Shown here: positions 14,374 through 31,617 of the stretch, piece by piece
How positions within the stretch are numbered: position 1 is the first letter of the stretch
Layout: every line of letters starts with the position of its first letter
Source: a virus
Direction: 5' to 3' (one strand)
IMG/VR virus record: IMGVR_UViG_3300048836_000136
Coordinates: 1-31,617 of that record
DNA length: 31,617 bases
The notes under the pieces: model-generated
Database searches by the model: none
What the model saw: only the letters and a program-made list of their open reading frames with translations
Told to the model about the DNA's origin: nothing
Made by a program: the position numbers and the translations under genes

Positions 14374-15014
14374 GTGTACTGATTACGTCACATCCTGCGG
14401 TTGAAAAATACCTTGAGGAGTGTGTGCAATCAGTAAAAGCTCAGACCAGACAGCCAGACGAGATAGTTCTTGTGTTGGATGGATATGTAAGACCCTATAT
14501 TTTCCACGACGTAACAACTATTGCCCGTAGTGTAAACAAAGGGGTTGCATATTCCCGAAAACAAGCAGCGTTGGTATCTAGTGGGAGTCATATACTGTTT
14601 CTCGATGGAGACGACACCATACCAGAAACATTTTTAGAGGAGATGGAAAACACCGATGCAGATATTGCTTATCCAGATACTTTATTGTGGAGCTACTGGA
14701 GCAGTAAGCCTAAAGAGAATGTCTTACACAGATCACCAAAAAGAATCACCGAGAGACTGATGCTAAGACACAACAGAATCGTTGTGACCAGCCTAATGAA
14801 GCGCGAGGTATTCGACAAGATAGGCGGCTTTGACCCCAAGTTGCCTGTTTTTGAGGATTACAAGTTTTTCCTTGCAGCACTAAAGAAGGGATTTACTTTT
14901 AAAAAAGCGAATACCTACATGAAGTACCGACAAAGGCAGGACTCAAGAAACCGTGTGTCGTTGGATATTAGAAGGGACACGTACAACAAAATAGTTCGTT
15001 GGTATCATGCCTAG
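14358..15014 (+). CDS. Family 2 glycosyltransferase
   Basis: 218 residues. KISVLITSHPAVEKYLEECVQSV and QPDEIVLVLDG form the nucleotide site, ILFLDGDDTIP (about 74-84) is the D-x-D metal site, and GGFDPKLPVFEDYKFFLAALKKG is the usual C-terminal acceptor and catalytic-base region (E-D). The protein is not closely similar to the neighbouring GT2, so this is not a simple duplication. Its last eight bases overlap the start of the region-4-like gene, linking glycan enzymes and regulator in one operon. Confidence 0.85.
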   Translation: MGKKISVLITSHPAVEKYLEECVQSVKAQTRQPDEIVLVLDGYVRPYIFHDVTTIARSVNKGVAYSRKQAALVSSGSHILFLDGDDTIPETFLEEMENTDADIAYPDTLLWSYWSSKPKENVLHRSPKRITERLMLRHNRIVVTSLMKREVFDKIGGFDPKLPVFEDYKFFLAALKKGFTFKKANTYMKYRQRQDSRNRVSLDIRRDTYNKIVRWYHA

Positions 15015-15336
15015 ATACAAGCCAATCAAGTTCATTCCGAGGTCTTACAACTTCTCCACATTTGAGGATGGGGTTGTAGATTCTATGATAGGTAAAGACG
15101 AGAATGCCCTGGAAGAGTTTGAATTGGAACAGGCGATGGTTGCCATGCTTAAAAGCCTCCCCAACGATAGATACAGAGTCTTATTCCTCTTACAGATTCT
15201 CCGCAACGACGGCTATCGACTACCCCACGAAGCCCTATACAAGCATATATTCAAAGTCCATCGATCTTGGTACTTCAGAATGGTCAAAAGAATGAAGAAG
15301 TTTGTGGGTCAACTTTATAATCTCAACACGACTTAA
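15007..15336 (+). CDS. Small protein resembling sigma-factor region 4, candidate late regulator
   Basis: 109 residues. After a basic N-terminus, residues 35-105 follow the plan of sigma70 region 4: an acidic helix ending EQAMVAMLKSLP, NDRYRVLFLLQIL, a turn at NDGYRL, then an HTH (HEALYKHIFKVHRSWYFRMVKRMKKFV) with recognition helix near 84-98. Regions 2 and 3 are missing, so it could not act alone as a sigma factor; it might join or displace region 4 of the host sigma to change -35 choice. Support comes from position: it is the last gene before the first late promoter, whose -35 lies in its final codons. No database confirmation was possible, so another HTH protein is the alternative. Confidence 0.55.
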   Translation: MPRYKPIKFIPRSYNFSTFEDGVVDSMIGKDENALEEFELEQAMVAMLKSLPNDRYRVLFLLQILRNDGYRLPHEALYKHIFKVHRSWYFRMVKRMKKFVGQLYNLNTT

Positions 15337-15356
15337 AGCGTGTTACACCGCATACT
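15329..15356 (+). promoter_or_regulatory. Late promoter, portal gene
   Basis: CGACTT (15329-15334), 16 bases, CATACT (15351-15356), then eight bases to the ATG at 15365. The predicted transcript starts at or just before the ATG, so it is leaderless. Same layout as the elements at 24190, 25378, 25632, 28528 and 29782. Confidence 0.7.
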
Positions 15357-15364
15357 AAATCTAT

Positions 15365-17353
15365 ATGGCAAAGTCAGGCGATGCAAAAATAGCAAGCATA
15401 ATAAGAAACAGGTTTACAAAGCTCCACAGCGATCAGGTCGAGATATTCGATGAGGTCGAGAAGTTCCACGCCATGTATCGCTCGATAATGACTCAAGATG
15501 AATCTTATCCTTGGGAATATCAGTATGTTGATCCCCAGATATTCCCACTTCTTAGAAACACCTTGGCACGTCTGAACCCAGACGGAATGCAGATATATCT
15601 TGAAGGCCGTGAGGAGATGGACGACGCCGTAAGGCGAGTCAATCAGGAGTTGGTTAATTGGGAGCTTGGAGAAAACAGCAAGACGATGGTGCTTTACCGA
15701 AATCTCTTCAGAGGGTTGCTCGCCGGAAGGGCATACCTTTCAACTGGTTGGCACTATGAACCGTCGATAGTTATCTCTCCAGACGGCACTAAACAAAAGA
15801 TGCTTCACGATATTGTCAATCGTGCCGAGGTTAAAAACGTCCGCTTCCAAGATATGTTCATTCCAAACCGCAACATCCCAGAACTCTATGAACAGCCTTA
15901 TCTTATTGAACGAGTCTCGATGTCCTACGGCGATATGGAAGATGACAACGAGATGCAGGAACGCGAAGTGTGGAAAAAAGATGCTTTGAAATACATCAAG
16001 GACAAAAAGGTATTCTCCACACAGGTCGATTATGGGGTTGATCTGATCCAAGAAGACGGTCTGTCTAAGGATGATCGGTTCATCCGAAGCCAATACGTGT
16101 CGCTTATTAAAATGCAGACCAAAGACGGTGATTGCTTCTACATTCTTGAAGACGGCAAAGATACGATTGTGAACACAGACGACGGAAGCGAGTATCTTCA
16201 CAATCACTACAACTACATAGATTGGGCTCCATTTCCTGAAGACGATGAATACTTCTCGCTTGGAATAGTACAGCCTGTAGCCGATCTACAGGAGGCTATG
16301 TCTTCGGTGTTGAACCAATATTTGACCACATCCAGAAACGCAGGGAATCCAATGACTATCATAGGAGGAACGGCAAATGAACAAACCCCAGACTGGATGT
16401 TTGTGAAGCGTCCAAATGGCATTGTGCGTGTCAAAGGCGACATCAACCAGATAAGAGAATACGCTACGGCCGATCCTTCGCCTTCCATGCTCAACATGAG
16501 GAACGAACTGCAAAGAACTTTCGAGAGAGCAAGTTCTATGAGTTCGCTTTACTCATCGGGTGTAGCTACAGGTGCAGCCGGCCAGATCAACACAACAGCA
16601 AGGGGTGCTTCAATAATCAATCAGAACATCGACACCAATATGCAGTTATTGGTTTCAATCTTTGGTGCGATGGCTCTAAGGCGTATCGGAGAGCACTTTC
16701 TTGAACTGAACGCACAGTATATTACCGAGGAGCAAGTCATAAGAATCACAGGTAAGAGTAGGCAGAGCGAGTTACTGAAGGTCTCTCCCGATGAAGTCAG
16801 TGCTAACTTCGATGTCTTGGTATCAGAGAAATCCATGCTCAGGCAGACACCAGAAATGCGACAGGCGACACTTCTTAACATCAAAGGTGCGCTCGATAAA
16901 GAAACTCAAGTGAAGCTCGACAAACGGCCGATTTATAAAGCTATATTGGAAGCTAACCCAGATACTCAAGACCTGGCTGAAGAAGTGATAGTCGATACTG
17001 AGTTCGTATCTGAAGAACACATCAATTCACTTTTGAAAGGAATAGTGCCAGAAGTATCTCCCGAAGATGACCATAAGATGCTTATCATGCTGGTACAAAA
17101 GCACCTGATGGATAATGACTACGATGACTCTATGCTCGATCTGTTTAACCAATACATGAACGAGCTACGAAAGTGGGTATCGGCTAGTAACCCTAATTTC
17201 CTACAAGCACCACCACCTCAACCACCACCGATGCTGCCCTCGAACGAGGAAGATTTAATGGCTAGTATGGCAAGTGGCGTAGAAATGGGCGGTAATCCCA
17301 CTGAAGGGCAAGCGGTAACGATACCCGAGGAAACTTTAGAATATGGAGTATGA
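15365..17353 (+). CDS. Portal protein
   Basis: 662 residues, the length of P22-like/podoviral portals. The core has the usual helical stem region: FSLGIVQPVADLQEAMSSVLNQYLTTSRNAGNP (key parts: GIVQPVADLQEA, VLNQYL), and the N-terminal half has FRGLLAGRAYLSTGW and RFQDMFIPNR typical of portals. The C-terminus is a Pro-rich tail (PPPQPPP). Twelve copies would form the DNA gate of the head and hold the terminase during packaging. Start ATG at 15365 fixed by the promoter just upstream; there is no SD. The stop overlaps the next ATG. Confidence 0.88.
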   Translation: MAKSGDAKIASIIRNRFTKLHSDQVEIFDEVEKFHAMYRSIMTQDESYPWEYQYVDPQIFPLLRNTLARLNPDGMQIYLEGREEMDDAVRRVNQELVNWELGENSKTMVLYRNLFRGLLAGRAYLSTGWHYEPSIVISPDGTKQKMLHDIVNRAEVKNVRFQDMFIPNRNIPELYEQPYLIERVSMSYGDMEDDNEMQEREVWKKDALKYIKDKKVFSTQVDYGVDLIQEDGLSKDDRFIRSQYVSLIKMQTKDGDCFYILEDGKDTIVNTDDGSEYLHNHYNYIDWAPFPEDDEYFSLGIVQPVADLQEAMSSVLNQYLTTSRNAGNPMTIIGGTANEQTPDWMFVKRPNGIVRVKGDINQIREYATADPSPSMLNMRNELQRTFERASSMSSLYSSGVATGAAGQINTTARGASIINQNIDTNMQLLVSIFGAMALRRIGEHFLELNAQYITEEQVIRITGKSRQSELLKVSPDEVSANFDVLVSEKSMLRQTPEMRQATLLNIKGALDKETQVKLDKRPIYKAILEANPDTQDLAEEVIVDTEFVSEEHINSLLKGIVPEVSPEDDHKMLIMLVQKHLMDNDYDDSMLDLFNQYMNELRKWVSASNPNFLQAPPPQPPPMLPSNEEDLMASMASGVEMGGNPTEGQAVTIPEETLEYGV

Positions 17354-18279
17354 CAATTCGAGAGGTACTGGACTATCTAAAAAAGACAATTGAGAGTGTA
17401 GCTGTTGCGTCAGTTAAGTCTTTAAAAGCCCATAACTACGACGTTTCTGTAACAAACCCCATCAGAATAGAGAATCTCCCCGGTACACAGAAGATAGAGG
17501 GACGTGTTGAGATCGACCAGAAGCCGATGCTTAGTGCGATCAATGCCGTAGTTACTGCACTTAAAGAGGTCAAAAAAGAAGTCGGTTCGATTGAAGTGCC
17601 TGAATCGGTGGATATTAAAAACTTTCCTAAAGCACCTGAGCCAGTCAAGGAAGTAACAGTTAAAAACCAGCCGAAAGATATTTCAGTGAACAACCTGAAT
17701 GCAGTTACCAAGTTGCTTCAAGCGATCGAAAAGGCTATATCCAAATTGCCCACCAAGTACCCAGAGATGAAAGTTCCTCCATTCCCAGATATTCCCGCAT
17801 ATCCTACGGAGATTAGAATCCAGAATCCCGTAAAGAATGTGACGGTCGATAACTTTGAGGCTTTGGTTGGTAAAGACCCCAAGCGATACGTGCCAGTCAG
17901 ATTGTCCGATGGAAAAGAGTTCTATAGTGCGATGGAGCAAGTAGCTTTGTCCTCGGGAAAGTACGCTTATTCAAATCAACAGGGAGAACGCGGTCAGGCT
18001 TTGATGGACCCTAACAGACGTGTCATGATGTTTCCAGACGAGTACCGTCTGAATGACCAGAGGGAGATTGATAGCACCAAATACTTGGGCTATGAAGACC
18101 GCTATTCCAATTGGTACATCATAAAGATGACTCAAGGCTCGACAGAAGAAGATCAAACCTTCAGATTTGCTACGAATACGAACAATTCGACGATCAATAC
18201 CTATGCAGGAGCTTGGAACAACAAACTTACCCTTCAGTATGACCGCTACAGTGTAGCCTTCGCGGTAATAGCTATCTAA
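17350..18279 (+). CDS. Virion structural protein with V-x-V-x-N-x-P repeats
   Basis: 309 residues. The middle carries several copies of a V-x-V/I-x-N-x-P unit (VTNPIRIENLP, DIKNFPKAPEP, VTVKNQPKDISVNNL, IRIQNPVKNVTVDNF), which is typical of beta-rich phage head-tail or fibre-base proteins, alternating with helices (AVTKLLQAIEKAISKLP). The last 120 residues form an unrelated domain rich in Asn and Thr ending in beta strands (KLTLQYDRYSVAFAVIAI). Translationally coupled to the portal gene by a four-base overlap. Exact role unknown. Confidence 0.65.
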   Translation: MTIREVLDYLKKTIESVAVASVKSLKAHNYDVSVTNPIRIENLPGTQKIEGRVEIDQKPMLSAINAVVTALKEVKKEVGSIEVPESVDIKNFPKAPEPVKEVTVKNQPKDISVNNLNAVTKLLQAIEKAISKLPTKYPEMKVPPFPDIPAYPTEIRIQNPVKNVTVDNFEALVGKDPKRYVPVRLSDGKEFYSAMEQVALSSGKYAYSNQQGERGQALMDPNRRVMMFPDEYRLNDQREIDSTKYLGYEDRYSNWYIIKMTQGSTEEDQTFRFATNTNNSTINTYAGAWNNKLTLQYDRYSVAFAVIAI

Positions 18280-18332
18280 ACCACTTCAGTCTCTAAACTG
18301 TTAAGAGACATGATCAAAGGGGGTGATAGTTA

Positions 18333-18868: not shown

Positions 18869-19675
18869 ATGGCATGGTCATATACAGAAAGTGGAAACAA
18901 CACAGCATCGGGTTCGTGGGCAGTATCAACACCCGCGGCTGTAGCTGGTGATTTAATCATTGTAAATATTGGTTGGGACGATAGCACCTCGACAACGGGG
19001 TTAACTCCGCCTGCTGGTAAAAACAGTGAAACTGCTGTTGTTGTAGAAGATGTGCGTGTCTCCTCTAATACTTCAGTCAGAGGGAAAATCGTCTATTACA
19101 TATGTACTGGAACTTGGACAGCAGGAACAATTACTTTTACCCCATCAGCAAGCGAACAATGGTCTGCGGTAGTTATTAAAGTGCCCGCCGGAGAATTTGA
19201 CGCCACTACCCCAGTGGGAGCAGACAACTATTTTGAGTCAACAACTACAGACGCAACCCCCGATCTTCCTTCTTTAACAGCAGGCTCGACAGACGGTAGT
19301 GGCACAGTTGTTGGTTTCATGGTGGGAGATGTAGATGATGCAGACGGAACAATAACGGGGTGGACAAGTAGAGCTAGTACTGACAGGGGAGCCGTGGGCG
19401 TTGATTTATGGACTAGAAACGCAGCAGCAACTGATAGCGAAAGTATTTCCGCTGCAACAGGAGCAACTTATCCGTCAGCGAGGGACTATGTATCGTTTAT
19501 CTACATAGTCAGGGTTCAACGGTCACCATCCGTAGCACTAAATACGCCTACAGACGTCTCGGCAACAACCGACACAACTCCCACATTTGACTTCACTGGA
19601 ACTGATCCGAACGGAGACAGTATTAGATATCAAATCCAAATTGATACGGTAGATACATTTGATTCTCAAACCTAA
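18869..19675 (+). CDS. Fibre/adhesin-like protein, interrupted at its C-terminal domain
   Basis: 268 residues, Thr/Ser-rich and beta. Residues 1-220 form one jelly-roll-like domain (GDLIIVNIGWDDS, WTAGTITFTP, SAVVIKVPAGEF, YVSFIYIVRVQ). Residues 223-268 are the first half of an Ig/Fn3-like domain (SVALNTPTDVSATTDTTPTFDFTGTDPNGD, then YQIQIDTVDTFDSQT), which stops abruptly. The expected second half (PLIDAVSGTDSGF...YYWRVRGIDPTGS) is found about 660 bases downstream, in the next gene. So this looks like a former single fibre gene with a second jelly-roll module inserted. A TAAAAT (18856-18861) seven bases before the ATG could drive a leaderless transcript; its -35 is poor. Confidence 0.75.
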   Translation: MAWSYTESGNNTASGSWAVSTPAAVAGDLIIVNIGWDDSTSTTGLTPPAGKNSETAVVVEDVRVSSNTSVRGKIVYYICTGTWTAGTITFTPSASEQWSAVVIKVPAGEFDATTPVGADNYFESTTTDATPDLPSLTAGSTDGSGTVVGFMVGDVDDADGTITGWTSRASTDRGAVGVDLWTRNAAATDSESISAATGATYPSARDYVSFIYIVRVQRSPSVALNTPTDVSATTDTTPTFDFTGTDPNGDSIRYQIQIDTVDTFDSQT

Positions 19676-19676
19676 T

Positions 19677-22511
19677 ATGGCTTATTCAATAGTACAAACA
19701 AAAACGGGAGATAGTGGTGGATATGTAACTTCAACAAACTTGTCCTTTGATAGTAGTACCACTACAGGAAACACGATTTTAGTTGCGGTTGCTTATAACA
19801 GCGATCAGTTGGGAACTCCAGATGTTACAGACAATAAGGGCAATACCTATACAAAATTGGCGGGTGGAGCGGGTGCGGGAGACACGTCGGGTGAACTGTG
19901 GTGTGCTTATAACGTGACGGGTGGTGCTTCACACCAAATAACCATTGAATTATCTGCAAATTGGCACGATGTCGCCATTGTCATGCGCGAGTATTCGGGG
20001 CTTACAACAGCAAATCCGTTTGACGTTAAAGCAGAGGGGACAACGGCTTCTGGTACTTCTCATACGTCAGATACTACAGCTTCAACCAGTCAGGCAAACG
20101 AGCTAGTGGTCGGTGTTATCGCCATAAATGCCAACAGCACATATACGGCAGGCGGAGGGTATGGAAACTTGTCATACCAAGACGGAAGCGACTTATACGA
20201 GTCTGTAGCGATGGAAGACAAACGCGTGACCGCTACGGGAACACAACAGGCAACAATAACATCTAGCGCAACAGCTTCGGGTTACTTTATTGTTGCAACA
20301 TTCAAGGAAGCGGCAACGGGAACGCCCCTAATTGATGCCGTTTCTGGCACTGACTCAGGCTTTGCCAATCCCGACAATGGTGGTGACACTGATCCATTCA
20401 ACTCGGGCGAGAATATCCAGTTTACAGTACAAGCTGGAGATACCTTGGCTTCAAGACTTTATTATTGGCGTGTAAGGGGTATTGATCCAACGGGTTCTAA
20501 TACATACGGAGCTTGGGCAACCACGCGATCATTTTATGTAACAGTCGCAGCTTCAACTCTAACAGACAATTTCAACGACAATTCGATAGATACAGCAAAG
20601 TGGATGGAGGATGACGATGCTGAAATATTGACCGAGACAAGCGGCCAGATTCAGATTGTACCATCGGGGACGGGGTCTGAATCTTCAGGGATTTATTCAA
20701 ACGCATATCTTGATTTAACTGGCAGTAGTGTGTACGCAAAGTTGGTCAGTGTGGACGCTAGTTTGTCGTACAATTCAGTGGTTATAAATCCAGTGTGGCT
20801 TTATAGCTATACTGATGAACTCATGGTCTGGTGGGAGGTTGTCGGAAACGGCGACCTAATTCAGTGCCGTGATGATCTTGACGAAGGAACTCCCTATTAC
20901 TCAGTCGCTTACAACTCAACCAATCATAAATATTTCAGGATCAGAGAGGCTTCGGGTACAACCTATTGGGATTTCTCGGCAGATGGTTCAAGTTGGACAA
21001 ATGCGTATTCTAAGGCGAGTGATATTGATTTATCGCTTGTTCAATTCGCTTTATTTATCAACGTAGACACAGAAGCCGCTGGAGAGGTCATAGTATTTGA
21101 CAATGTAAACTCGACTGATGGGGAGACTTCAGGGGAAGAAGAAGCAGAAGTAGCACCAGTGACAACTACGTTGTCGCTACCAAGCGTAACAGCTACCTAC
21201 GCTGGTGTTTGGAATGCTAGTGTTTCACCTGTTTCGGTAACATTGACACCACCTTCAGTTACGGCCACATACATAGCGACATACAACGCCTCGGTAAGTC
21301 CTGTCTCATTGACTTTGAGTCCAATCGAAGTGACAGCCACTTATGCAGGTGTCTGGAATGCTTCAGTTAGTCCCATATCTCTAGCACTAAGCACAGTCGA
21401 TCCAACTGCCACCTATCAGGGAGTTTGGAACGCCTCTGCAAGTCCGGTGACAACTTCGTTGTCTTTGCCGGCAGTAACAGCAACCTACGTACAAGCCGAG
21501 ACTGCTTCAATTAGCCCCGTAGCGATTACAGCAAGTCTGCCGGCAGTAGCGGCGACTTACGTACAACAGGAAACCGCATCTGTCAGTGCTGTTGCGGTTA
21601 CTCTATCGCCAGTAGCGATTACAGCGACGTATCAAGAAGTGGTAAATGCCTCAGTTTCTCCTGTTTCACTTACGATGAGTTTGCCAGAGGTTACTGCTAC
21701 TTCCCAAGCGGGATCAGAAGCTGAGGTGAGTCCAGTGTCACTAACTTTGACACCGCCCGAAGTGACAGCAACATACGTTCAACCGGAGACGGCAAGTGTG
21801 TCGCCATTGTCAGTCAGTCTATCGGCCGTCTCGACCACAGCCAGTTACGTACAAGCAGAGACAGCCTCTGTATCACCACTTCAGCTAACGCTTGGTGTCA
21901 ACGATCCAATAGCAACATTCGTAAATGAACAGACTGCCAGTGTCGTACCATTAGTTGTTTCACTGTCGGTAGTTTCTACAACAGCTACGTATTCGCAAAT
22001 TAACACAGCTAGTGTTTCACCCGTAGCGGTAACAACAAGTATTCCCGATGTAACGGCTACGTATGTCCAAGTAGAAACAGCTAGTGTAAGTGCATTGTCG
22101 GTATCACTTTCGATACCAGGTGTAACGGCAACCTACACGGGGGGTGCGGTGGCGGGAATCGAACCAATAATAATAAGTCTAAATCTTCCCGAAATTACGG
22201 CAAGTTATGTAGAAGTAGACGAAGCAGAAGTCGCTCCAGTATCGTTGTCACTTGGTACACCGGAAATCGTAGGCGAATGGGAAAGTGTCAGAACTGCTAG
22301 TGTCGAGCCAGTTGGATTATCAATTTCATTGACTTCTGTAACGGCAGGGTACGATGGAATCTTCACAGCAGCAGTGTCGCCAATGCAATTAACAATTAAC
22401 CCCACAAGTGCCAGACCGCTTCATAACGGACTATGCACAGACAGTGATTTTATACTTGTAGACGGCCGCCCAGCGATCTTACTATTCGACGACTTCTATA
22501 CTCGCATCTAA
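19677..22511 (+). CDS. Large repetitive fibre/adhesin protein
   Basis: 944 residues from ATG 19677, one base after the previous stop (a TTG at 19659 would overlap that gene). Order: jelly-roll-like domain (about 1-215), the second half of an Ig/Fn3-like domain (PLIDAVSG...YYWRVRG, 220-295), a concanavalin/LamG-like domain (about 298-485: DNFNDNSIDTAKW, YFRIREASGTTYWDFSADGSSW, VIVFDNV), then 17 exact 24-residue repeats and a unique end. Likely role: tail fibre or surface-binding spike that recognises host glycans. The high Thr/Ser/Ala/Val content makes it a plausible target for the phage glycosyltransferases. No SD; probably coupled translation. Confidence 0.8.
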   Translation: MAYSIVQTKTGDSGGYVTSTNLSFDSSTTTGNTILVAVAYNSDQLGTPDVTDNKGNTYTKLAGGAGAGDTSGELWCAYNVTGGASHQITIELSANWHDVAIVMREYSGLTTANPFDVKAEGTTASGTSHTSDTTASTSQANELVVGVIAINANSTYTAGGGYGNLSYQDGSDLYESVAMEDKRVTATGTQQATITSSATASGYFIVATFKEAATGTPLIDAVSGTDSGFANPDNGGDTDPFNSGENIQFTVQAGDTLASRLYYWRVRGIDPTGSNTYGAWATTRSFYVTVAASTLTDNFNDNSIDTAKWMEDDDAEILTETSGQIQIVPSGTGSESSGIYSNAYLDLTGSSVYAKLVSVDASLSYNSVVINPVWLYSYTDELMVWWEVVGNGDLIQCRDDLDEGTPYYSVAYNSTNHKYFRIREASGTTYWDFSADGSSWTNAYSKASDIDLSLVQFALFINVDTEAAGEVIVFDNVNSTDGETSGEEEAEVAPVTTTLSLPSVTATYAGVWNASVSPVSVTLTPPSVTATYIATYNASVSPVSLTLSPIEVTATYAGVWNASVSPISLALSTVDPTATYQGVWNASASPVTTSLSLPAVTATYVQAETASISPVAITASLPAVAATYVQQETASVSAVAVTLSPVAITATYQEVVNASVSPVSLTMSLPEVTATSQAGSEAEVSPVSLTLTPPEVTATYVQPETASVSPLSVSLSAVSTTASYVQAETASVSPLQLTLGVNDPIATFVNEQTASVVPLVVSLSVVSTTATYSQINTASVSPVAVTTSIPDVTATYVQVETASVSALSVSLSIPGVTATYTGGAVAGIEPIIISLNLPEITASYVEVDEAEVAPVSLSLGTPEIVGEWESVRTASVEPVGLSISLTSVTAGYDGIFTAAVSPMQLTINPTSARPLHNGLCTDSDFILVDGRPAILLFDDFYTRI
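21144..22367 (+). repeat. 17 tandem 72-bp (24-residue) repeats in the fibre gene
   Basis: Each unit has exactly 24 codons with no indels. The consensus is A-S-V-S-P-V-x-(V/L)-(T/S)-L-S-x-P-x-V-T-A-T-Y-x-x-x-x-x (letters with x mark variable sites). A partial eighteenth unit starts at 22368 (AAVSPMQLTINP). The units have diverged at DNA level, so the array is old rather than a recent slippage. Two predicted strands per unit suggest a beta-solenoid or fibrous shaft. Confidence 0.92.
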
Positions 22512-23252: not shown

Positions 23253-23256
23253 ATAG

Positions 23257-23285
23257 CGACTTAGACAGTCCACAACTGTTAAACT
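23257..23285 (+). promoter_or_regulatory. Late promoter, scaffold gene
   Basis: TAGCGACTTA is present in full (CGACTT at 23257-23262). The -10 is weaker: TTAAAC at 16-base spacing or TAAACT (23280-23285) at 17. The predicted start near 23290 coincides with the 5' strand of the leader helix. Confidence 0.55.
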
Positions 23286-23360: not shown

Positions 23361-24164
23361 ATGAACGACGAAGATTCAATAATAGAGGGTTCGGAGGAAC
23401 TAGACACTTCAGAAGATACTTCAAGTGAGGATACACAGGACGTAGAGGATGTAGAAGAAGATTCACAAGCTAACGGCGAGGCCACCAAAAGCGTTGATGT
23501 GGAAGAAAGCAAAGAAGAAGTGACCAGTAAGGGAACCAAGCTTGATCCCGATCCAATGTCCAGAGCAAACCAGTTGAGAGCGAACGCGGAAGCTCGTACG
23601 AGGGAGTACGAGTCATTACTGAACGATCCCCAGAAACTAGAAAACTATCTAAAGGTTTTAAAAGGCGAACAACAACAATCCCAAGGTGAGGAAATATCGC
23701 TTGATAAAGTAGAAACCACAGAAGATTTACAGAAGTATCTTAAACAAGAGAGAGAGAAAGACAAAGCAGAGATAGCATCGGTTAAAGACGAACTGGCAAA
23801 GACGGCTCAGTTGAATCAATACGATACGCAGTTGTCCGCAATCAGGAAGAAATACCCCGACATGACAAACGAACAGGAGAATATCATCGGTGATATCTTT
23901 GAAGCCTCTAACTTTGTTCAGTCGGGCAATCAGGTGAAGTATGAGCCAAGGGTCGGTCTGTTGGATGTCGCCGACAAGGTGATGAGTTTGAGTGAGTCAT
24001 CACGTAAAGAGGGAAGCAGACAAGCCCAGACTATTGTACGGAGTGCCACGGCAGGACGTGTGAAGTCGGGAACAGTAACCGAATCAAAAGCCGACGAAAC
24101 CAAGATGAGCGCAGAGCAGACTATCGCCCACAGAATGCAACAAGCAAGCAGAAAACGAAGCTAA
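23361..24164 (+). CDS. Capsid scaffold-like protein
   Basis: 267 residues directly before the major capsid gene. Residues 1-60 are extremely acidic (DEDSIIEGSEELDTSEDTSSEDTQDVED), 65-150 are helical and charged with coiled-coil character (EARTREYESLLNDPQKLENYLKVLKG, EREKDKAEIASVKDELAK), and the C-terminus is basic (IAHRMQQASRKRS), the usual docking element of scaffolding proteins on the coat. It would guide procapsid assembly and then leave. No protease domain seen. Confidence 0.75.
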   Translation: MNDEDSIIEGSEELDTSEDTSSEDTQDVEDVEEDSQANGEATKSVDVEESKEEVTSKGTKLDPDPMSRANQLRANAEARTREYESLLNDPQKLENYLKVLKGEQQQSQGEEISLDKVETTEDLQKYLKQEREKDKAEIASVKDELAKTAQLNQYDTQLSAIRKKYPDMTNEQENIIGDIFEASNFVQSGNQVKYEPRVGLLDVADKVMSLSESSRKEGSRQAQTIVRSATAGRVKSGTVTESKADETKMSAEQTIAHRMQQASRKRS

Positions 24165-24189
24165 CTTAGCTACTTCTCTCGACTTATAG

Positions 24190-24217
24190 CGACCTAATCT
24201 TTGTATCTACATATACT
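24190..24217 (+). promoter_or_regulatory. Late promoter, major capsid gene
   Basis: TAGCGACCTA holds CGACCT at 24190-24195, then 16 bases and TATACT (24212-24217), the best -10 of the set. A second CGACTT sits just upstream (24179-24184). The transcript would start near 24224, giving a leader of about 15 bases without SD. Confidence 0.72.
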
Positions 24218-24238: not shown

Positions 24239-25402
24239 ATGGCAGCTAACACAACATACGGACAGCAATCAACTTTCTCAGGTGCAGAGTCTAATCTTCG
24301 AGTAAACATCGAAGACATGATCGCCAAGTATCCTGATTGGCAATTCCCCCTTCTGAAAAGATGGGATTCCAAAGTCTTCAAGAATGCAGTTAAATCTCAC
24401 AAGTATGAATGGACAGAAAGAGATTTAAGAGCAGTTAAAACCACAGTCGCATCAGAAACAGTAGCAGCAGATGCAACAACCTTTTATGTTACCGATGCAG
24501 GAGTATTCAATGTTGACGATGTTCTGAGAGCACCAGATGGTGAGCAGATGATCGTCAAAGCCGTTTCGGGTGGAACTCTTCTAACAGTCGAAAGAGAATG
24601 GGGTGGAACCACAGGCGAAACAATGGTACTCGGTGAGACAGTTTACCGAAGTGGTGTAGCATCGCCTCAAGGTAAAGACGCTGATGACATGGTTATCCAA
24701 GCAACCGAAGATCTTTACAACTACACTCAAATATTTGAAGATGTAGTTCATCTTTCAGGGACACAAAGAGAATCTCTTATCCACGGCGATGAAAACTCAA
24801 GCGAATTGATCTCAAGAAAACAAAAAGAACTCATGGAACAATTACAGGTTGCACTTCTTCTCGGAAGAAGGGGTAAAGACGCAGCAGAGAAAAGAACAAC
24901 TCTTGGAGGTCTAAAATTCTTCATCGACACTTATGCAGCCGACAACAAGATTGACTTCGGAGGTGCATCAACATGGAGCACAGACGCTTCAGTAGTTGGT
25001 AAATTCGAGGATGCAATCGAGAAGATCGCCGACAAGATGGGTGATAAGCCAACTATCTACATGGGTTACAAAGCCATGAGGAAGTTTAGAATGATCGACG
25101 ATGACCTTATCAGATCTACCAGAAGCGACAAAAAGAGAGGTGTCGGAGCAGTAGACGGTTATCTCTCACAACTCGGAGAATTGGATGTAGTCATGCTTCG
25201 AGAAAGAACCGGAGCAATGAGTGACTCAATCTTCTTTGTAGATGAATCTCATGTAGGCTACAAAGCAATGAGAAACAGAGGATGGTTCACAGAAGAACTC
25301 GCAAAGACTGGAGACTCTTACAAATGGCAAGTATTAGGTGAATACACTGAGAAAGTGGGAACACCAAAGGTACATAGCTACCTATACAATCTAGGATTAT
25401 AA
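24239..25402 (+). CDS. Major capsid protein, SU10 type (HK97 fold)
   Basis: 387 residues. The N-terminus (SNLRVNIEDMIAKYPDWQFPLLKRWDSKVFKNAVKSHKYEWTERDLR; key words DMI, PLLKR, EWTERDL) and the body (MVIQATEDLYNYTQIFEDVVHLSGTQRES, KELMEQLQVALLLGRRG, TLGGLKFFIDTY, PTIYMGYKAMRKF) match the SU10/DUF5309 capsid family. The C-terminal strands (VDESHVGYKAMRNRGWFTEELAKTGDSYKWQVLGEY) complete the P-domain. It forms the icosahedral shell. Codon use is regular and purine-rich, as in a highly expressed gene. No SD in the short leader. Confidence 0.9.
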   Translation: MAANTTYGQQSTFSGAESNLRVNIEDMIAKYPDWQFPLLKRWDSKVFKNAVKSHKYEWTERDLRAVKTTVASETVAADATTFYVTDAGVFNVDDVLRAPDGEQMIVKAVSGGTLLTVEREWGGTTGETMVLGETVYRSGVASPQGKDADDMVIQATEDLYNYTQIFEDVVHLSGTQRESLIHGDENSSELISRKQKELMEQLQVALLLGRRGKDAAEKRTTLGGLKFFIDTYAADNKIDFGGASTWSTDASVVGKFEDAIEKIADKMGDKPTIYMGYKAMRKFRMIDDDLIRSTRSDKKRGVGAVDGYLSQLGELDVVMLRERTGAMSDSIFFVDESHVGYKAMRNRGWFTEELAKTGDSYKWQVLGEYTEKVGTPKVHSYLYNLGL

Positions 25403-25405
25403 AAT
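25378..25405 (+). promoter_or_regulatory. Late promoter, small gene after capsid
   Basis: TAGCTACCTA (core CTACCT 25378-25383), 16 bases, TAAAAT (25400-25405), six bases to ATG 25412. One base of the core differs from the consensus. It lies inside the last codons of the capsid gene. Confidence 0.5.
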
Positions 25406-25411: not shown

Positions 25412-25576
25412 ATGGCAACAGCATCAGGACGAGAAATATACGTAATAGGATTCGAAGCAGACGGCGACAGAGAAGTAACTATCGTCGAGGATGGAAATGA
25501 ACATGATTTCCCAGCAGCCGCGGAGTACACATACGCAAGCGAATTAACCAGATTCCCATACGAACTAACAGCGTAA
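25412..25576 (+). CDS. 54-residue hypothetical protein after the capsid gene
   Basis: Short acidic protein starting MATASGREIYVIGF and ending RFPYELTA. It probably forms a small beta sheet (REIYVIGFEADGDREVTIVEDG) and is encoded right behind the capsid gene with its own promoter and a terminator after it. Small acidic beta proteins at this position are often head decoration proteins; that function is only suggested by position. Confidence 0.7.
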   Translation: MATASGREIYVIGFEADGDREVTIVEDGNEHDFPAAAEYTYASELTRFPYELTA

Positions 25577-25620: not shown

Positions 25621-25631
25621 ATTGCTTCTAA

Positions 25632-25659
25632 CGACTTAACTAGCCTTGAACTCTATCAT
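25632..25659 (+). promoter_or_regulatory. Late promoter, adaptor gene
   Basis: CGACTT (25632-25637) in TAACGACTTA, 16 bases, TATCAT (25654-25659), seven bases to ATG 25667. It follows the terminator at 25597, which independently argues for a promoter here. Leaderless prediction. Confidence 0.75.
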
Positions 25660-25666: not shown

Positions 25667-26356
25667 ATGGCAACTTCTAAAAGTCAAACGATATCAACCT
25701 TAGGTGAATGCTTACAAGCAATGGCGCGATATGCAGGGGGTTCAGTGCCGGCGACTACCGATACCAAGTACGACGATTGGGTAAGATCAATCCAATTGGG
25801 TCAAGAAGATGCAGCCAAACGTGGATTTTGGGGAAGGCTCCTTACTAAAGACGATCTAGCCATAACAGCCAACGCAGACACGGCATTACTACCCGATGAC
25901 TTCCACAAACGCAATGGAATCTTTGTATTGGAAGTAGATGGGGAGGATTGGAATGATCCCGCAAACGAATCTGGACAAGTGCTACACGTCGAGACAAGGC
26001 CCGCCGATGCCAAGTGGCTTGTACGCTTCACGGGCTACACACCAACCGCCAGTGCTACCGGCACGCTTTGGTACTTTTATAATCCTCCAGTTCCTGAAGA
26101 TGAATCTGATCCTCTATATCTCGACGGAGAGATGATTATGTTTTATGCCCTAACAGAACACTTTAGGGCCAAGAAACAGTTTGGAAGCTTAGACGATGCA
26201 CGTCTTGAATACAATAACCGCTTCTCAGAGTTAATAGGCTTAGAGATGCTTCCATCACCGCACGAACTGTTGAGTTGGAAGCCATTTAACACATATCTTA
26301 ATCATCCGCGAACTGAAAATATCTATTACTCACGTACAAGACGTTCTAGAAGATAA
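25667..26356 (+). CDS. Head-tail adaptor-like protein
   Basis: 229 residues from ATG 25667. A TTG at 25646 would add seven residues but lies upstream of the -10, so the ATG is preferred. Helical N-terminus (STLGECLQAMARYAG, DDWVRSIQLGQEDAAKRGFWGRLL), then beta-rich middle (GIFVLEVDGEDW, WLVRFTGYTP, GTLWYFYNP) and helical ALTEHFRAKKQFGSLDDARLEYNNRFSEL. This order (helices, beta, YLxGEM..YALTEHFRxKxQ) is that of small podoviral head-completion proteins placed between capsid and stabilisation genes. The start of the next gene is two bases after its stop. Confidence 0.6.
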   Translation: MATSKSQTISTLGECLQAMARYAGGSVPATTDTKYDDWVRSIQLGQEDAAKRGFWGRLLTKDDLAITANADTALLPDDFHKRNGIFVLEVDGEDWNDPANESGQVLHVETRPADAKWLVRFTGYTPTASATGTLWYFYNPPVPEDESDPLYLDGEMIMFYALTEHFRAKKQFGSLDDARLEYNNRFSELIGLEMLPSPHELLSWKPFNTYLNHPRTENIYYSRTRRSRR

Positions 26357-26358
26357 CT

Positions 26359-28302
26359 ATGGCAAGAGTCTATGGCAAAAGAAGATCAAACCCCGAAGTC
26401 AAAACCAAAGGAAGTAGAGGGTTTGCTAAGGGGTTAAATCAAATCTCCTCACCAACTGCGATCAAAGACAACGAACTCGCGGAAGCACAGAACGTGAACT
26501 ATATTGAAAACGGTGTGGTAGAGAAACGCCCTGGCTCAATAAACCTTGGCAGTGTAAGGGGAAGCTCGACAAAGATTTATTCATTAAAAGGAGTCTATGG
26601 AATCGGCGGGGCAGATTACTTTATCCGCATATCCGATGACGGCATCGCACAAAGGTATTCGTTTGGTTCGAGTACGTGGGTAGACATAGCCGGTTCACCA
26701 ACATTTTCTGTCGTTAGGACGACCATCCTTCAAGCATATTCTTCTGTCTATTTTTTAAATCCAGACGATACGATGGTGAAATGGGACGGAACGACATGGA
26801 CAACATTTACCGCACTTGCTAATCCCAGTGTTGACCCGACAATCGCAAAGACCGGCAGCGCCACGGGTACGACAACGTGGTATTACAAGTATCTGTGGGA
26901 GAACGAAGTAGGACACACTGGATCATCTAATTCTGATTCGTTAGGCAGTATGCCCGACGAACTGGACTCGTCTACATATATAACTGTTACTCTACCGGCC
27001 GCGCCTTCAGGCACGATAAGGACAAGTATCTACAGGGGAACAATTGATGGTGAAGAAATATTCTTAACCTCAATTCCCGCTTCACAAACGACATTTGATG
27101 ACAAGGGATTCTTTGAACCCGATCCGCTCTATGCAGCACCGACAGACAACACAACCGCAGGACTTCAATTCAAGTTTGCGGAAGTCTACAACGATACCCT
27201 AATAGGTGTAGCCACCAACTTATTCTCAGACCTATCGGCAAACGATTACTATCTAGCCTTTTCCGCTGGAGGCGACAAGTTCGATTCATTCGGCCGTGCT
27301 GATGGTGGAGGCTATTACGGATGGCGTGTAGGTGACGGCGATCCCATCAACGGGCTCCATTCGTTCCAGTCAAAGTTATACACTTTTAAAAGACAGAAGG
27401 TGGGAGCATTCACCTTTGACGAATCAGGTGGATCAGTACAGGACATCAATCTGGCCGTGGGTGCGGTGTCTCACAACTCCATTCACGCAGCCGGCAACGA
27501 TCTACGATTCTGGAGTAACGAAGGTGCTATGAGTCTGGGGAATGAGCCTAACTTTGCTGACATCATTCGTACCAAAGTGCTTTCGGCTAAGGCAGACCGC
27601 ACCGTACAGGCGATGACTGCTAAAGATTTTCCCAATATTTCGGGCGTTTATTACAAGGGCGTATCGCTTTGGGGAATACCACTAGGCGAACCAGACGAGG
27701 GCATCACTTCAACTCTTGCTTACTTTGAGAAGTATGTGGCGTGGTCTGAATGGGTAGGGCTTACCCCTAACATCTGGTCGAAGTTCATAGACGAAGACAA
27801 CGTGGAAAATATCTACTACGGTGATGCAAAAAGCGGGAATGTGGTCCAGTGCTGGCAGGGAACCCACGATAGGGGTAGTGCAATTGTCTACCGCGTAGCA
27901 ACTAAACAGTGGGACTTAGACGTGCCCTTCAGATACAAAGCTGTGGGACGTGCTTATTTGATCTTCAATAGTGTTACTGGAACCAATACCGATGTAACAG
28001 TTGTTGAGGACGGAGAGCGAAGCACGATCAATGCACCCGTCTACGGCAACACAGGAGAGCAAGGGTTTGGCATCGATATGTGGGGAGATGTTGAGTTTGG
28101 CGACTCTTCAGGAGAGTATTCGGGCGACACCACTGGTCTACTAATCCGCTATATCGACATTGAAAAGGATGTCCTCTCGATTCAGATAATCGTCCAGAAT
28201 GACGGTATTACCGACCAAATTGCACTAGCGGGCGTGTACTTCGATTACAGTCTAAGCGATGCAGATTTGCCTTCAGAATGGGGACTCCGAAGAACTAACT
28301 AG
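26359..28302 (+). CDS. P22 gp10-like stabilisation protein / tail hub
   Basis: 647 residues. GFAKGLNQISSPTAIKDNELAEAQNVNYIENGVVEKRPGS is the family-typical N-terminus (key parts GLNQISSP, AQNVNYI, EKRPGS) and the body is a long succession of short beta strands with W/Y/G-rich turns, as in a beta-propeller. Such proteins cap the portal-adaptor and form the podovirus tail tube or hub. TTWYYKYLWENEVGHTG and RTSIYRGTIDGEEIFLTSIP show an inserted Fn3-like segment. It ends against, and overlaps by eight bases, the convergent membrane-protein gene. Confidence 0.8.
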   Translation: MARVYGKRRSNPEVKTKGSRGFAKGLNQISSPTAIKDNELAEAQNVNYIENGVVEKRPGSINLGSVRGSSTKIYSLKGVYGIGGADYFIRISDDGIAQRYSFGSSTWVDIAGSPTFSVVRTTILQAYSSVYFLNPDDTMVKWDGTTWTTFTALANPSVDPTIAKTGSATGTTTWYYKYLWENEVGHTGSSNSDSLGSMPDELDSSTYITVTLPAAPSGTIRTSIYRGTIDGEEIFLTSIPASQTTFDDKGFFEPDPLYAAPTDNTTAGLQFKFAEVYNDTLIGVATNLFSDLSANDYYLAFSAGGDKFDSFGRADGGGYYGWRVGDGDPINGLHSFQSKLYTFKRQKVGAFTFDESGGSVQDINLAVGAVSHNSIHAAGNDLRFWSNEGAMSLGNEPNFADIIRTKVLSAKADRTVQAMTAKDFPNISGVYYKGVSLWGIPLGEPDEGITSTLAYFEKYVAWSEWVGLTPNIWSKFIDEDNVENIYYGDAKSGNVVQCWQGTHDRGSAIVYRVATKQWDLDVPFRYKAVGRAYLIFNSVTGTNTDVTVVEDGERSTINAPVYGNTGEQGFGIDMWGDVEFGDSSGEYSGDTTGLLIRYIDIEKDVLSIQIIVQNDGITDQIALAGVYFDYSLSDADLPSEWGLRRTN

Positions 28303-28501
28303 AAACATGTAGTCTGATCTTCTCAAGAACGATCAATACTGAAAAACTGAAAGCTAGATAGATAGGGTATAAAAAGAATAACGTCGTCACATTCCAATCG
28401 AGACCTTCATAGGATGCGGGGTTGTCGAGTCCTTCCCACCACATCGCCACAGTAAGTAAGATGGCAGCGTAGAATCCCCATCTGTAAATCTTTAGTCTCA
28501 T
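28295..28501 (-). CDS. Two-pass membrane protein on the opposite strand
   Basis: 68 residues from ATG 28501 (a GTG at 28516 would add five). Two membrane segments: WGFYAAILLTVAMWW (about 8-22) and TTLFFLYPIYLAFSFSVLIVL (about 39-59), with short charged ends. It is the only minus-strand gene in the virion region. A TATCAT-like box five bases upstream of the ATG (plus 28507-28512) could drive a leaderless transcript, but no -35 is clear. Possible roles: holin, lysogenic conversion or superinfection exclusion, all inferred from topology and orientation. Confidence 0.6.
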   Translation of the reverse strand: MRLKIYRWGFYAAILLTVAMWWEGLDNPASYEGLDWNVTTLFFLYPIYLAFSFSVLIVLEKIRLHVSS

Positions 28502-28527
28502 ACTCAATGATAACACGGCTTGTCTAG

Positions 28528-28555
28528 CGACTTACTTAGTTTTTTCCGTCAAAAT
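28528..28555 (+). promoter_or_regulatory. Late promoter, ejection-type gene
   Basis: TAGCGACTTA with CGACTT at 28528-28533, 16 bases, CAAAAT (28550-28555), seven bases to ATG 28563. The ATG at 28554 lies inside the -10 and so cannot be the start of this transcript. Confidence 0.72.
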
Positions 28556-28562
28556 GGTATAT

Positions 28563-29777
28563 ATGGGGTTTCTCGACGATTTAAAAAAGCAAGCATCAGC
28601 CTTTGGACAGTTGTACAAAACTACTGGAGTCAATATTGGCCCACTCAAGAATGTACACGCTGGGTCATGGGGTGGACTTCCAGATGTTGGTGCAACTGAA
28701 TGGGTTAAAAGTGCTAGGGCTTCAGAACCAACAACGAGTCCGATCCAAGGACCTTATGGTCAGACTTCATACACGACTCCGTACGCAAATGTTAATTACA
28801 CAAATACTTCAGGTGGTGGTGGTGGTACTGGAGATGTACTTGGTGCTAATACACAAGCTCCAACAGCTACCTCAACAGGCGATAATGGACAAGCAGAAGC
28901 GGAAGCACAACGTCAAAGGGAGTTGGATATTATAAGGCAAAGACTAGAATCTTTTAAAAGTAGAGCATCGAGTGAACGCGAACAAGCTCAAGGAAGATTC
29001 AATGATTTTAAAACTTCTGCTGGATCACGTTTCCAGACCCTTAGAGACCAACTGTCAAATACCGTATCTTCTTCTTTAGAGAATCTTGGACAAGAGAAGG
29101 TGAATACTCAGAACCTCTACGGCAGAGCAGCAGGAACAGCAAGACAAGCTATGGAATCAGCCGTTAGAGGCAATCGTACACAGGCTAGAGCACAGAATAG
29201 ACTTAACTCCAGTTTCTACGATGACAGACAAGCCGACACAAGACTTCAGTTTGGTAAGGGTATCGCAGACACCGCGGCAGAAGAAGCGGGCAAAGTAGCG
29301 GGTATTGGTACAAGGGAAACAGAAACAAAGAATTACGGCGAGACAGAGACACAGAAGCTCGGTCAAGAAGAAAACGATCTAGTTACCCAAGCACAACAAC
29401 AATTGAACGCTGATCTTTCTGAGGCAGAACAACTTGAGAGAGTTGGACTTATTGATTATGCCTCTGCTGAAAACGATATCTTGTCCCGACATGCTTCACG
29501 GCTCGACGCGATCAGAAATTACATTGATAACCGAAACCTAAGACTTACAGAACTCGCAGCCACCTACGGAAACCAAATAGGTAATTTCCAAGCGATCACT
29601 CCTGAGCTAAGTAGCACTCTGTCAAACAATAGTGCTTTGAATAATGTAAACACATTGGCAACCAGTTACAACACACCAATGACCCCAACAGCCACAGCAG
29701 GAAACAAACTTGCTTTCAAGGGTTCTACAGATGAGAACCAGAGAAGGCTTGAAGAATTAGGACTCCTCTTTGCTTAA
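28563..29777 (+). CDS. Coiled-coil internal/ejection-type virion protein
   Basis: 404 residues. After a Gly/Ser/Thr-rich low-complexity stretch (about 45-105), residues 110-355 are long charged helices with many Q, E and R (QAEAEAQRQRELDIIRQRLESFKS, NTVSSSLENLGQEKVNTQ, DLVTQAQQQLNADLSEAEQLER). This is typical of podovirus proteins held inside the head and ejected into the host to make the channel. Small residues dominate (GRAAGTARQAMESAV). No transmembrane segment. It is next to a larger protein of the same kind of composition. Confidence 0.65.
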   Translation: MGFLDDLKKQASAFGQLYKTTGVNIGPLKNVHAGSWGGLPDVGATEWVKSARASEPTTSPIQGPYGQTSYTTPYANVNYTNTSGGGGGTGDVLGANTQAPTATSTGDNGQAEAEAQRQRELDIIRQRLESFKSRASSEREQAQGRFNDFKTSAGSRFQTLRDQLSNTVSSSLENLGQEKVNTQNLYGRAAGTARQAMESAVRGNRTQARAQNRLNSSFYDDRQADTRLQFGKGIADTAAEEAGKVAGIGTRETETKNYGETETQKLGQEENDLVTQAQQQLNADLSEAEQLERVGLIDYASAENDILSRHASRLDAIRNYIDNRNLRLTELAATYGNQIGNFQAITPELSSTLSNNSALNNVNTLATSYNTPMTPTATAGNKLAFKGSTDENQRRLEELGLLFA

Positions 29778-29781
29778 GTAG

Positions 29782-29809
29782 CGATTCACGTCCACTCGTG
29801 CCGTAGAAT
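29782..29809 (+). promoter_or_regulatory. Late promoter, large internal protein
   Basis: TAGCGATTCA with CGATTC at 29782-29787, 16 bases, TAGAAT (29804-29809), seven bases to ATG 29817. Slightly divergent -35, good -10; leaderless prediction. Confidence 0.65.
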
Positions 29810-29816
29810 GAAATAT

Positions 29817-31617
29817 ATGGCACTGCTTTCTGATATCTACAAAAACCGAAAGAAAATTGTATCGGGTGTTGGTAGGGGCCTTGGTGATGTATTTGGCACT
29901 TATGCAAGAACTCTTGGTGAAGCCGGTTATCAGGCTGGAAGGTTCGTAACTAATCCTCTATACCGAAAGTCTATCTTAACCGGTGGGCAGGGTATGTCAC
30001 CAACTGAGTTGCAACAAGCCTCTCAACTAAACAACACGCGCTTTCTTAGACCCGATCAGATCCAAAACCGAACACGAACGGCCGTAACGGGTGGAACAGG
30101 AACCGCCAAGGCAATGCTTGGAGCTTACGGCTTAACCGCAGGGCTACCAGCCGTAGCCTCAACGGCAGCGGTAAGTGGACTCATTAACACTGGAATAGCT
30201 AAAGCTACAGGTGGTGATCCTTATGAAGCGTTTGGATATGGGGTGGGATCATCTTCTCAATATGGCGGACTCAATAGACTCACCGGCCCATTTATAGATC
30301 AGCGTGTGGCAAAGCTCGGTCTGGGAGGAAAAAGCTTATTAACTAGAACCCTAAGAAGGGCGGGAGCGAGTGCAGGGTTTAATCTGGGGGAGGATGCCTT
30401 ATTCACAGCAGGAACCGAAGGTCGAATGATAACACCCAAAGAGGCATTGGCATCACTTGCCATCGGTGGAATCACTGGGCCACTTTCAAGACGTTACAAC
30501 CCAACAACAGGATTCAAAAAGGAGTTGGTGGAGAATTTAAAAAAGCCTGTAGGGAAGGTCAATCTACGCGAGATGCTTTCGAGGAAGGCTTCAACTAAAA
30601 GCAATTTACTTACACCAAAAGCCAGATCACGTTATGAGTTACCTGAAGGAAGACCGATAAGGACAACAGGAGGCAAAAGCCTTGAAGACCTCAAGACCGG
30701 CGATTCTGTAAAGCTCGATAGAAGATTCGGATCAAGAGAGACAATGATTGGGAGAAACGGTCAATCAGCCTATGGAGCAGTTGCGGGTATTGAACCCTAT
30801 CAAGACGAAGATGGTAAATGGCAGGTTCGATTCAACCCCGAAAAAGCAGCCCTAGGTGTGGGAGGTATGGTACTTGGTACAGGGGCAATAAAGAAGCTCG
30901 ACGACCTAAAGACTGGACTTGGCGATGAAACAGATATCAGAGGACTAACAAGTGTTGCAAGGCAATCGAAGACTTATGACGAGTTCGTCTCCAGAGTCCA
31001 AGACACCCTCTCGCTTTCGCCTGAAACAATAGGAAAACTACAAGATGCCAAGTTGTCGTTAAAGGACTTCTACAATCAGGCAGCGACTACTACCCAAGGA
31101 GGAACACAAAAGACACCAAAAGTAGGGGGAACAGTAAAAGCCAGCCAACTACCCGAATCCACAATGACCGCCCGTTCACTAGATGACGTGTTGCAAGGAA
31201 AGCAAACAACACTATCAAGCCAAAAGAAAACAGGATCAGAAATCCCACTACAAAGTGAAACAAAAGCGGTACAAAGTAATCAAGGAGCATTAACCGAAGA
31301 TATCATTTCCGAAGGGAGGAAGTCAATTGGGTCTACCGCAGACGAACCCAAAGGGGGAACAAAGAAGGTTCTCGACGACCTCTACACTCAGTGGGTAGAT
31401 CGTTACCATCCAATCAACAAAGCCGGTGCGAAGGTCAAGACATATCTTAAGACCAAGAATGCCCAATTACGACCAGAGTACGACCCAGAATATCTATTAC
31501 GTAGGCTTACAGGTGCAGGTGGAGTGGCGGACTATCGCTTCAAGACAGAACTCAACCCGATTTTAAAACAGATGGAGGGTTCGGGTATTGAGAAGTTGGA
31601 TATGGATACATACCTTG
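29817..31617 (+). CDS. Large internal/polyvalent virion protein (partial at window end)
   Basis: 600 codons are open to the window edge. The N-terminal region is Gly/Ala-rich and hydrophobic near 98-130 (KAMLGAYGLTAGLPAVASTAAVSGLIN), suggesting membrane insertion after ejection. The middle is Gly/Lys/Thr-rich. Near the edge, KKVLDDLYTQWVDRYHPINKAGAKV and EYLLRRLTGAGGVADYRF resemble the linkers of very large phage polyvalent proteins, in which many enzymatic or structural domains are strung together. Domain content downstream is unknown. It is probably an ejection protein of the podovirus type. Confidence 0.7.
   Translation, partial: MALLSDIYKNRKKIVSGVGRGLGDVFGTYARTLGEAGYQAGRFVTNPLYRKSILTGGQGMSPTELQQASQLNNTRFLRPDQIQNRTRTAVTGGTGTAKAMLGAYGLTAGLPAVASTAAVSGLINTGIAKATGGDPYEAFGYGVGSSSQYGGLNRLTGPFIDQRVAKLGLGGKSLLTRTLRRAGASAGFNLGEDALFTAGTEGRMITPKEALASLAIGGITGPLSRRYNPTTGFKKELVENLKKPVGKVNLREMLSRKASTKSNLLTPKARSRYELPEGRPIRTTGGKSLEDLKTGDSVKLDRRFGSRETMIGRNGQSAYGAVAGIEPYQDEDGKWQVRFNPEKAALGVGGMVLGTGAIKKLDDLKTGLGDETDIRGLTSVARQSKTYDEFVSRVQDTLSLSPETIGKLQDAKLSLKDFYNQAATTTQGGTQKTPKVGGTVKASQLPESTMTARSLDDVLQGKQTTLSSQKKTGSEIPLQSETKAVQSNQGALTEDIISEGRKSIGSTADEPKGGTKKVLDDLYTQWVDRYHPINKAGAKVKTYLKTKNAQLRPEYDPEYLLRRLTGAGGVADYRFKTELNPILKQMEGSGIEKLDMDTYL

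Follow-up and report, generated by a model that had tools for sequence, protein, structure and literature searches.

Gene layout and box-associated promoters

We analyzed a 31,617-nucleotide stretch of viral DNA (the window; bases 1-31617 of the 39,794-bp IMG/VR contig IMGVR_UViG_3300048589_000210, the whole of which was covered in counts of ATG codons and boxes), with attention to rg4, a small sigma-region-4-like protein, and to a class of putative late promoters, the first of which begins in the last codons of its gene. The left end of the window carries an integrase gene, followed by a terminase/glycosyltransferase block, and the virion module continues past the right edge. The genes concerned are as follows.

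15007..15336, plus strand: rg4, 109 residues, a stand-alone sigma-region-4-like protein and proposed late regulator (by family, synteny, and modelled fold)
15365..17353, plus strand: SU10-type portal gene, the first late gene (PF23899, E=1.6e-18)
23361..24164, plus strand: scaffold-like gene, named from its place upstream of the major capsid protein (MCP) gene; homologues in relatives
24239..25402, plus strand: MCP (SU10_MCP; PF17236, E=3e-39)
25412..25576, plus strand: p25412, a small virion-module gene with homologues in relatives
25667..26356, plus strand: p25667, a virion-module gene with homologues in relatives
28563..29777, plus strand: p28563, a virion-module gene (proposed start 28563, not 28554)
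29817..31617, plus strand: large virion-module gene extending beyond the window

A sequence-only reading of this DNA had placed TAGCGACYTA-like boxes before seven virion genes, with a -10-like hexamer at exactly 16 nucleotides (nt) in six of them, and both the boxes and the six hexamers were found where it had put them. An eighth box lies on the contig outside the window.

15329..15356, plus strand: portal promoter, CGACTT-N16-CATACT, starting in the last rg4 codons; syntenic with the portal promoters of relatives
23254..23285, plus strand: scaffold promoter, TAGCGACTTA, with -10 TTAAAC (N16) or TAAACT (N17); leadered; syntenic with site 8238 of relative G002
24167..24217, plus strand: MCP promoter, three tandem 10-nt boxes (24167, TAGCTACTTC; 24177, TCTCGACTTA; 24187, TAGCGACCTA) and then -10 TATACT; core CGACCT at 24190, 16 nt from the -10
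25375..25405, plus strand: p25412 promoter, TAGCTACCTA-N15-TAAAAT, inside the MCP 3' end and 37 nt before ATG 25412; core CTACCT at 25378, 16 nt from the -10
25629..25659, plus strand: p25667 promoter, TAACGACTTA, core CGACTT at 25632, -10 TATCAT, 38 nt before ATG 25667; syntenic counterparts in many relatives
28525..28555, plus strand: p28563 promoter, TAGCGACTTA, core CGACTT at 28528, -10 CAAAAT, 38 nt before ATG 28563; syntenic with G002 site 19431
29779..29809, plus strand: promoter of gene 29817, TAGCGATTCA, core CGATTC at 29782, -10 TAGAAT, 38 nt before ATG 29817
34188, outside the window: eighth box, TAGCGACCCA, 38 nt before ATG 34226 of the tail-fibre gene

The first late promoter (15329) does begin within the last codons of the gene ending at 15336, and the spacing at 23257 is 16 or 17 nt, as had been proposed. 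Boxes 25378 and 29782 deviate from the CGACYT consensus, and the stray CGACTT site reported at 5588 is present at 5582. In the five close cases and before the portal gene, 6-8 nt separate the -10 from the ATG, which, together with boxes 37-39 nt upstream, suggests that most of the leading late mRNAs start at the ATG or a few bases from it and so have no leader or almost none.

Positional specificity of the box

Bare counting of CGACYT-N14..19-TANNNT in the window returned three sites against 2.83 expected, which is not above chance, and this count was dropped in favor of positional tests. The box alone, allowing at most one mismatch, occurred seven times against 2.53 expected, a count matched in 1 of 100 shuffles. 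A match to at least 8 of the 10 positions of TAGCGACYTA at 37-39 nt upstream was found for only 5 of the 1176 ATG codons on both strands of the 39.8-kb contig, and all five were starts of virion genes (25412, 25667, 28563, 29817, and 34226), compared with a chance expectation of about 0.1 among 48 gene starts (our own calculation, base rate 0.0021). Site 34188 was found only once the pattern had been fixed and is thus an out-of-sample confirmation of it. At 23257, 24190, and G002 site 8238, the distance from box to -10 is fixed while that from box to ATG is not, which argues for a promoter rather than a translation signal.

In the large virion-module protein encoded at 19659-22511, the sequence SVSPVSLTLSPxxVTATY is repeated many times with little change, and its codons repeatedly give the box core GCGACTTA. 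Many box-like matches fall in these tandem repeats, where Ala-Thr-Tyr codons spell GCGACTTAC; as promoters they were dismissed, being a repeat-coded by-product that inflates motif counts.

Orthologous promoters in relatives

About 50 contigs of relatives were gathered through similarity to the MCP, the portal protein, and rg4; phage reference records gave only distant MCP matches and no real match to rg4. CGACYT promoters were found in none of these contigs. In about 20 of the relatives, the orthologues of the portal gene, p25667, and p34226 have promoters at the same places, of the form tAGn[C/T]ACAAA-N14-TAnTAT-N6-9-ATG. The perfect ACAA columns of this profile arise by construction, the 24 sites having been picked for ACAA; a reversed-sequence control gave 7 matches, far below the true strands. 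Alignment of the regions upstream of the portal gene revealed the conserved element GAGTCACAAAGAG, with TAnTAT at 17 nt and the ATG 6-9 nt further on. It is coding in L011, L059-L061, L067, and L049, where it specifies the last residues of the upstream protein rg4 (SHKE; ESHKE), and it lies after the rg4 stop codon in L037/L058, L046/L070, and L077, so it is conserved as a DNA element. The variants ACACAA, TCACAA, TTACAA, and ATACAA recur before p25667 and p34226 homologues (G008, L046, G015, G017, and others). The window motif TAG-CG-AC-TT-A aligns with TAG-AC-AC-AA-A of the relatives, with a spacer one base shorter in the window.

A third box was found in G002, whose capsid protein is 69% identical to that of the window phage. 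Here, TTACCCTA-N17-TANNNT stands at five virion genes (L017/L018 sites 5318, 8238, 10782, 17711, and 19431, before the portal gene, the scaffold gene, and the homologues of p25667, p34226, and p28563), and in the 20-kb piece L017 it occurs four times against 0.01 expected. The scaffold promoter is leadered in both the window phage and G002, lying about 100 nt upstream of the gene, and this shared feature supports the weak site at 23257.

The early promoters of the relatives look different, TTGACA-N17-TAnnnT being common and several having a Shine-Dalgarno-like leader (GAAAGG- or AGGAG-like). That early promoters carry TTGACA, as the sequence-only reading held, was therefore well shown in the relatives but not in the window, where TTGACAATACG occurs twice (near 1323 and at 1578-1603), just upstream of the first rightward genes, with no good -10 at 16-18 nt from either copy. 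The second copy forms TTGACA-N14-TGTCAA and may be a repressor operator overlapping a leaderless-type start. The late promoters lack the TTGACA-like -35 at 16-18 nt that housekeeping sigma-70 reads, having GCGACY or [C/T]ACAA at the -35 position. Synteny in the relatives and the contrast with TTGACA promoters thus bear out the proposal of a separate late promoter class, and the sequences support its being distinct and syntenic across relatives.

The rg4 protein

In at least 14 lineages, the gene immediately before the portal gene encodes a member of the rg4 family, and the first late promoter falls inside this gene or shortly behind its end. The family was detected in 15 of the 18 relatives searched and adjoins the portal gene wherever it was mapped; searches of the gathered loci recovered its members with strong E-values. 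The family consensus reads ILxNLxxREKxVFxFQLLRDxGYxIDHGSFAKTLxxSRxxYMxxLxxVRxK. No paper describing the family was found in the literature searched.

The claim that the gene ending at 15336 encodes a region-4-like fold stood up for the family, through modelling and profile comparison, but less well for the window protein, whose own model is poor. AlphaFold2 prediction for a central member (L059, with 14 sequences) gave a predicted local distance difference test score (pLDDT) of 73.9 overall and about 90 over the helix-turn-helix (HTH) part (residues 60-110). When this family model was compared with known structures by VIA-align, 49 of the 50 rows, with Z of 5.7-6.7, were titled as a sigma factor or as a polymerase complex containing one. 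Among them were SigR region 4 (5fgm), SigD region 4, and sigmaE region 4 in contact with -35 DNA (2h27); the sole non-sigma row was the HTH domain of EsrB. The tri-helical HTH fold of sigma region 4 was accordingly recognized at middling Z for the family rather than for the window protein by itself. In hhalign, the family profile gave a 49% probability with E. coli sigma region 4, compared with 1% for sigma region 2 and 3% for a CRP helix-turn-helix control. Individual members matched NCBIfam models weakly, mostly those for sigma factors and in one case the 'positive control sigma-like factor' NF005385; the best sigma E-values were 0.003 in NCBIfam and 0.01 in PHROG. The window rg4 had no match in Pfam and no significant family match, and Sigma70_r4 was not among the Pfam matches of eight family members. 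No match to Sigma70_r2 was found in the 15 phage records searched, while 11 of 14 control genomes gave a match. With 109 residues and no region 2, rg4 differs from a full-length phage sigma factor, which has region 2 for the -10 and binds the core polymerase.

A proposed late switch and its rivals

The fold of rg4 and the position of its gene beside the first late signal suggest that it switches host RNA polymerase to the late genes. In the model that we find slightly more probable than its alternatives taken together, the stand-alone sigma-4-like protein reads the late -35 and the host housekeeping sigma reads the -10, giving an early-to-late switch. Presumably, rg4 would be made with the terminase operon, since its gene overlaps the end of the preceding one. 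It would then most likely take the position normally held by sigma region 4, on the beta flap and the -35 box, and would recognize TAGCGACYTA in the window phage and tAGn[C/T]ACAAA in most relatives, while the main host sigma would still read an ordinary -10 (TAnnnT) and transcription would begin on the ATG or a few bases away from it. DNA binding, docking on polymerase, timing, and leaderlessness are all predictions of this model. A more specific version, which we advance tentatively and hold to be on the doubtful side, is that rg4 takes over the beta flap from host sigma region 4, so that the intact host holoenzyme comes to prefer another -35 with no need for a new sigma factor, and that the -35 code diverges fast while promoter places, the -10, and leaderless starts stay fixed.

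How closely rg4 goes with the box was judged from the portal regions. Twelve of the 16 distinct portal regions that come with rg4 show [C/T]ACAA at 17 nt before the -10, and the window has GCGACT/CGACTT; G005, in which an 18-kb fragment lacks rg4, has TTGACA promoters before both the portal and scaffold genes. The expected link between box and gene therefore held in relatives insofar as 12 of 16 rg4-bearing regions share a non-TTGACA box and the rg4-less G005 fragment has TTGACA; G002 departs from it. Several observations weigh against the model. The portal promoter is unclear in G009 and G011 and has the box ATTCAA in G014. No rg4 was detected in the 26-kb fragment of G002, from which the early region is missing, yet the special box TTACCCTA is there, so the link is not one-to-one in the present data. 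The model of the window rg4 itself was poor (three sequences, pLDDT 49), and its fold accordingly rests on the family. Values of Z below 8 and Foldseek E-values of about 0.1-1 are weak alone, and NtcA-type HTHs were also among the matches. Finally, box divergence correlated with divergence of the recognition helix (rho 0.79) and with that of the rest of the protein (0.83), so that covariation of box and helix is inseparable from common descent and does not single out the helix.

An unlikely but substantial rival is that rg4 acts as a conventional activator, like Ltr/RinA or MotA: bound to DNA at a site overlapping the -35, it would touch polymerase or host sigma region 4 and leave every sigma domain in place. 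The same layout, a final early gene directly upstream of its late promoter, is seen for Ltr of phi13 (PMC13123087), the three tandem 10-nt boxes before the MCP promoter suit cooperative binding, and a DUF1492 protein and a transcriptional activator are among the matches in BFVD. Against this, most of the promoters have one non-palindromic box at the -35 with a fixed spacer of 16/17 nt, as for sigma region 4, and the structural matches are overwhelmingly to that region. Replacement of sigma region 4 and an activator bound beside it cannot be told apart from sequence alone: the single non-palindromic box at a fixed spacer favors replacement, and the triple box together with the Ltr precedent favors a bound activator.

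It is decidedly less probable that the promoter class is real but read by another factor, either a host alternative sigma or a phage HTH protein such as that at 3343-3561 (HTH_39), with rg4 acting otherwise at the terminase/portal boundary. The window does encode further small HTH proteins, and no rg4 was detected in G002 despite its separate box, albeit in a fragment that lacks the early region. However, in at least 14 lineages the promoter comes with rg4, which has the fold of a -35 reader, and a host sigma does not explain why differing boxes stand at orthologous places with the same -10. Chance matches, or coding or translation signals mistaken for promoters, can hardly account for the boxes; such an explanation draws on the unremarkable count of the bare pattern in the window, but it is contradicted by the positional enrichment, the out-of-sample site, the synteny with other boxes, the location of the box outside coding sequence in several relatives, and the frequency of TTACCCTA-N17-TANNNT in L017.

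Comparison with known systems

The sequence-only reading had described the late switch as unlike known ones, which was too strong in view of the precedents set by split sigma factors, T4 gp33, and activators of the Ltr/RinA kind; what is new is that housekeeping-type -10s and a readable -35 box occur together with a free sigma-4-like domain. The phiEco32-like phage 7-11 encodes the late sigma factor SaPh711_gp47, with bipartite late promoters GTAAtg-(16)-aCTA that differ from those of phiEco32 yet sit at similar genome positions (PMC8948821). The SU10-type portal and MCP genes of the window take their name from this group, and as in our relatives, the place of the promoter was kept while its sequence changed. 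In that group, however, the encoded sigma forms a holoenzyme with core polymerase, whereas here only a region-4-like domain was found and the -10 resembles the housekeeping one.

In T4, gp33 is a 112-residue sigma-4 mimic for late genes that sits at the beta flap without reading DNA sequence; the late promoters of this phage have no -35, and gp33 works with gp55 (sigma-2-like) and the sliding clamp (PMC2988020). The likeness lies in a small phage sigma-4-like protein tied to late genes, a role that is predicted for rg4, and the difference in the conserved -35 box of our promoters. In phage phi13, the early module ends with the Ltr gene, and the late promoter that Ltr activates follows directly; this promoter needs its TATA box and contains direct repeats as likely Ltr binding sites (PMC13123087). 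As with Ltr/RinA in phages of Gram-positive bacteria, where a small regulator is last in the early module, upstream of a packaging/virion late promoter with a sigmaA-type TATA box, and as with ArpU, the late promoter here lies in or just after the 3' end of the regulator gene. Those systems have one late promoter with four direct repeats, unlike the several single-box, leaderless-type promoters found here, and RinA, ArpU, and DUF1492 models were not among the Pfam or NCBIfam matches of rg4, DUF1492 appearing only as a weak BFVD structure match. In B. subtilis, SigO-RsoA is a two-subunit sigma with its domains on separate proteins, and the prophage PBSX encodes Xpf, a positive control factor belonging to the sigma family (PMC10141391). 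Xpf has both sigma2 and sigma4, whereas rg4 lacks region 2, and no partner protein was found here.

If the model is true, one free domain that alters only the -35 preference of host polymerase suffices for an early-to-late switch, and the leading late genes would be leaderless while the early genes of relatives use Shine-Dalgarno leaders. The family offers natural regulator/box pairs (CGACYT, CACAA, TACAA, and possibly TTACCCTA) with which the -35 reading code of region 4 could be tested by swapping. It also provides a motif-plus-gene handle for mapping early/late programmes in phages of uncultivated bacteria, whose transcripts cannot be mapped.

Other features of the window and its relatives

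Additional features included the following.

3343-3561: small HTH protein (HTH_39), one of several small HTH proteins encoded in the window
9015-9413: HTH protein preceding the large terminase gene

The latter is a better candidate for the small terminase than rg4, which was rejected in that role. Beside the integrase gene, the minus strand of positions 80-160 resembles a tRNA-Lys-type gene in its 3' half (...GATTTGAACCTACAACCAATTGATTAAGAGC...). This stretch is a probable attachment site of a temperate phage; no complete tRNA was reported there by ARAGORN. A minus-strand gene at L016:9337-10434 (about 38336-39433 of the contig, outside the window) encodes EVTRIVEEVPVTVEVT/TPTPTP repeats together with a transmembrane segment and an HTH-like N-terminal stretch, in a style that we take to be Chloroflexota-like, and may represent the host flank of a prophage. 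The capsid relative L023 (DCTD01000029.1; 52%) lies on a 3.9-kb contig binned into a Patescibacteria metagenome-assembled genome, a weak hint at the host range of the phage family; rg4 had no match among 380 Patescibacteria genomes. In L012, an HNH-type endonuclease gene (1206-1691) stands between two genes that are adjacent in the near-identical L011 and L013 and is a recent homing-endonuclease insertion.

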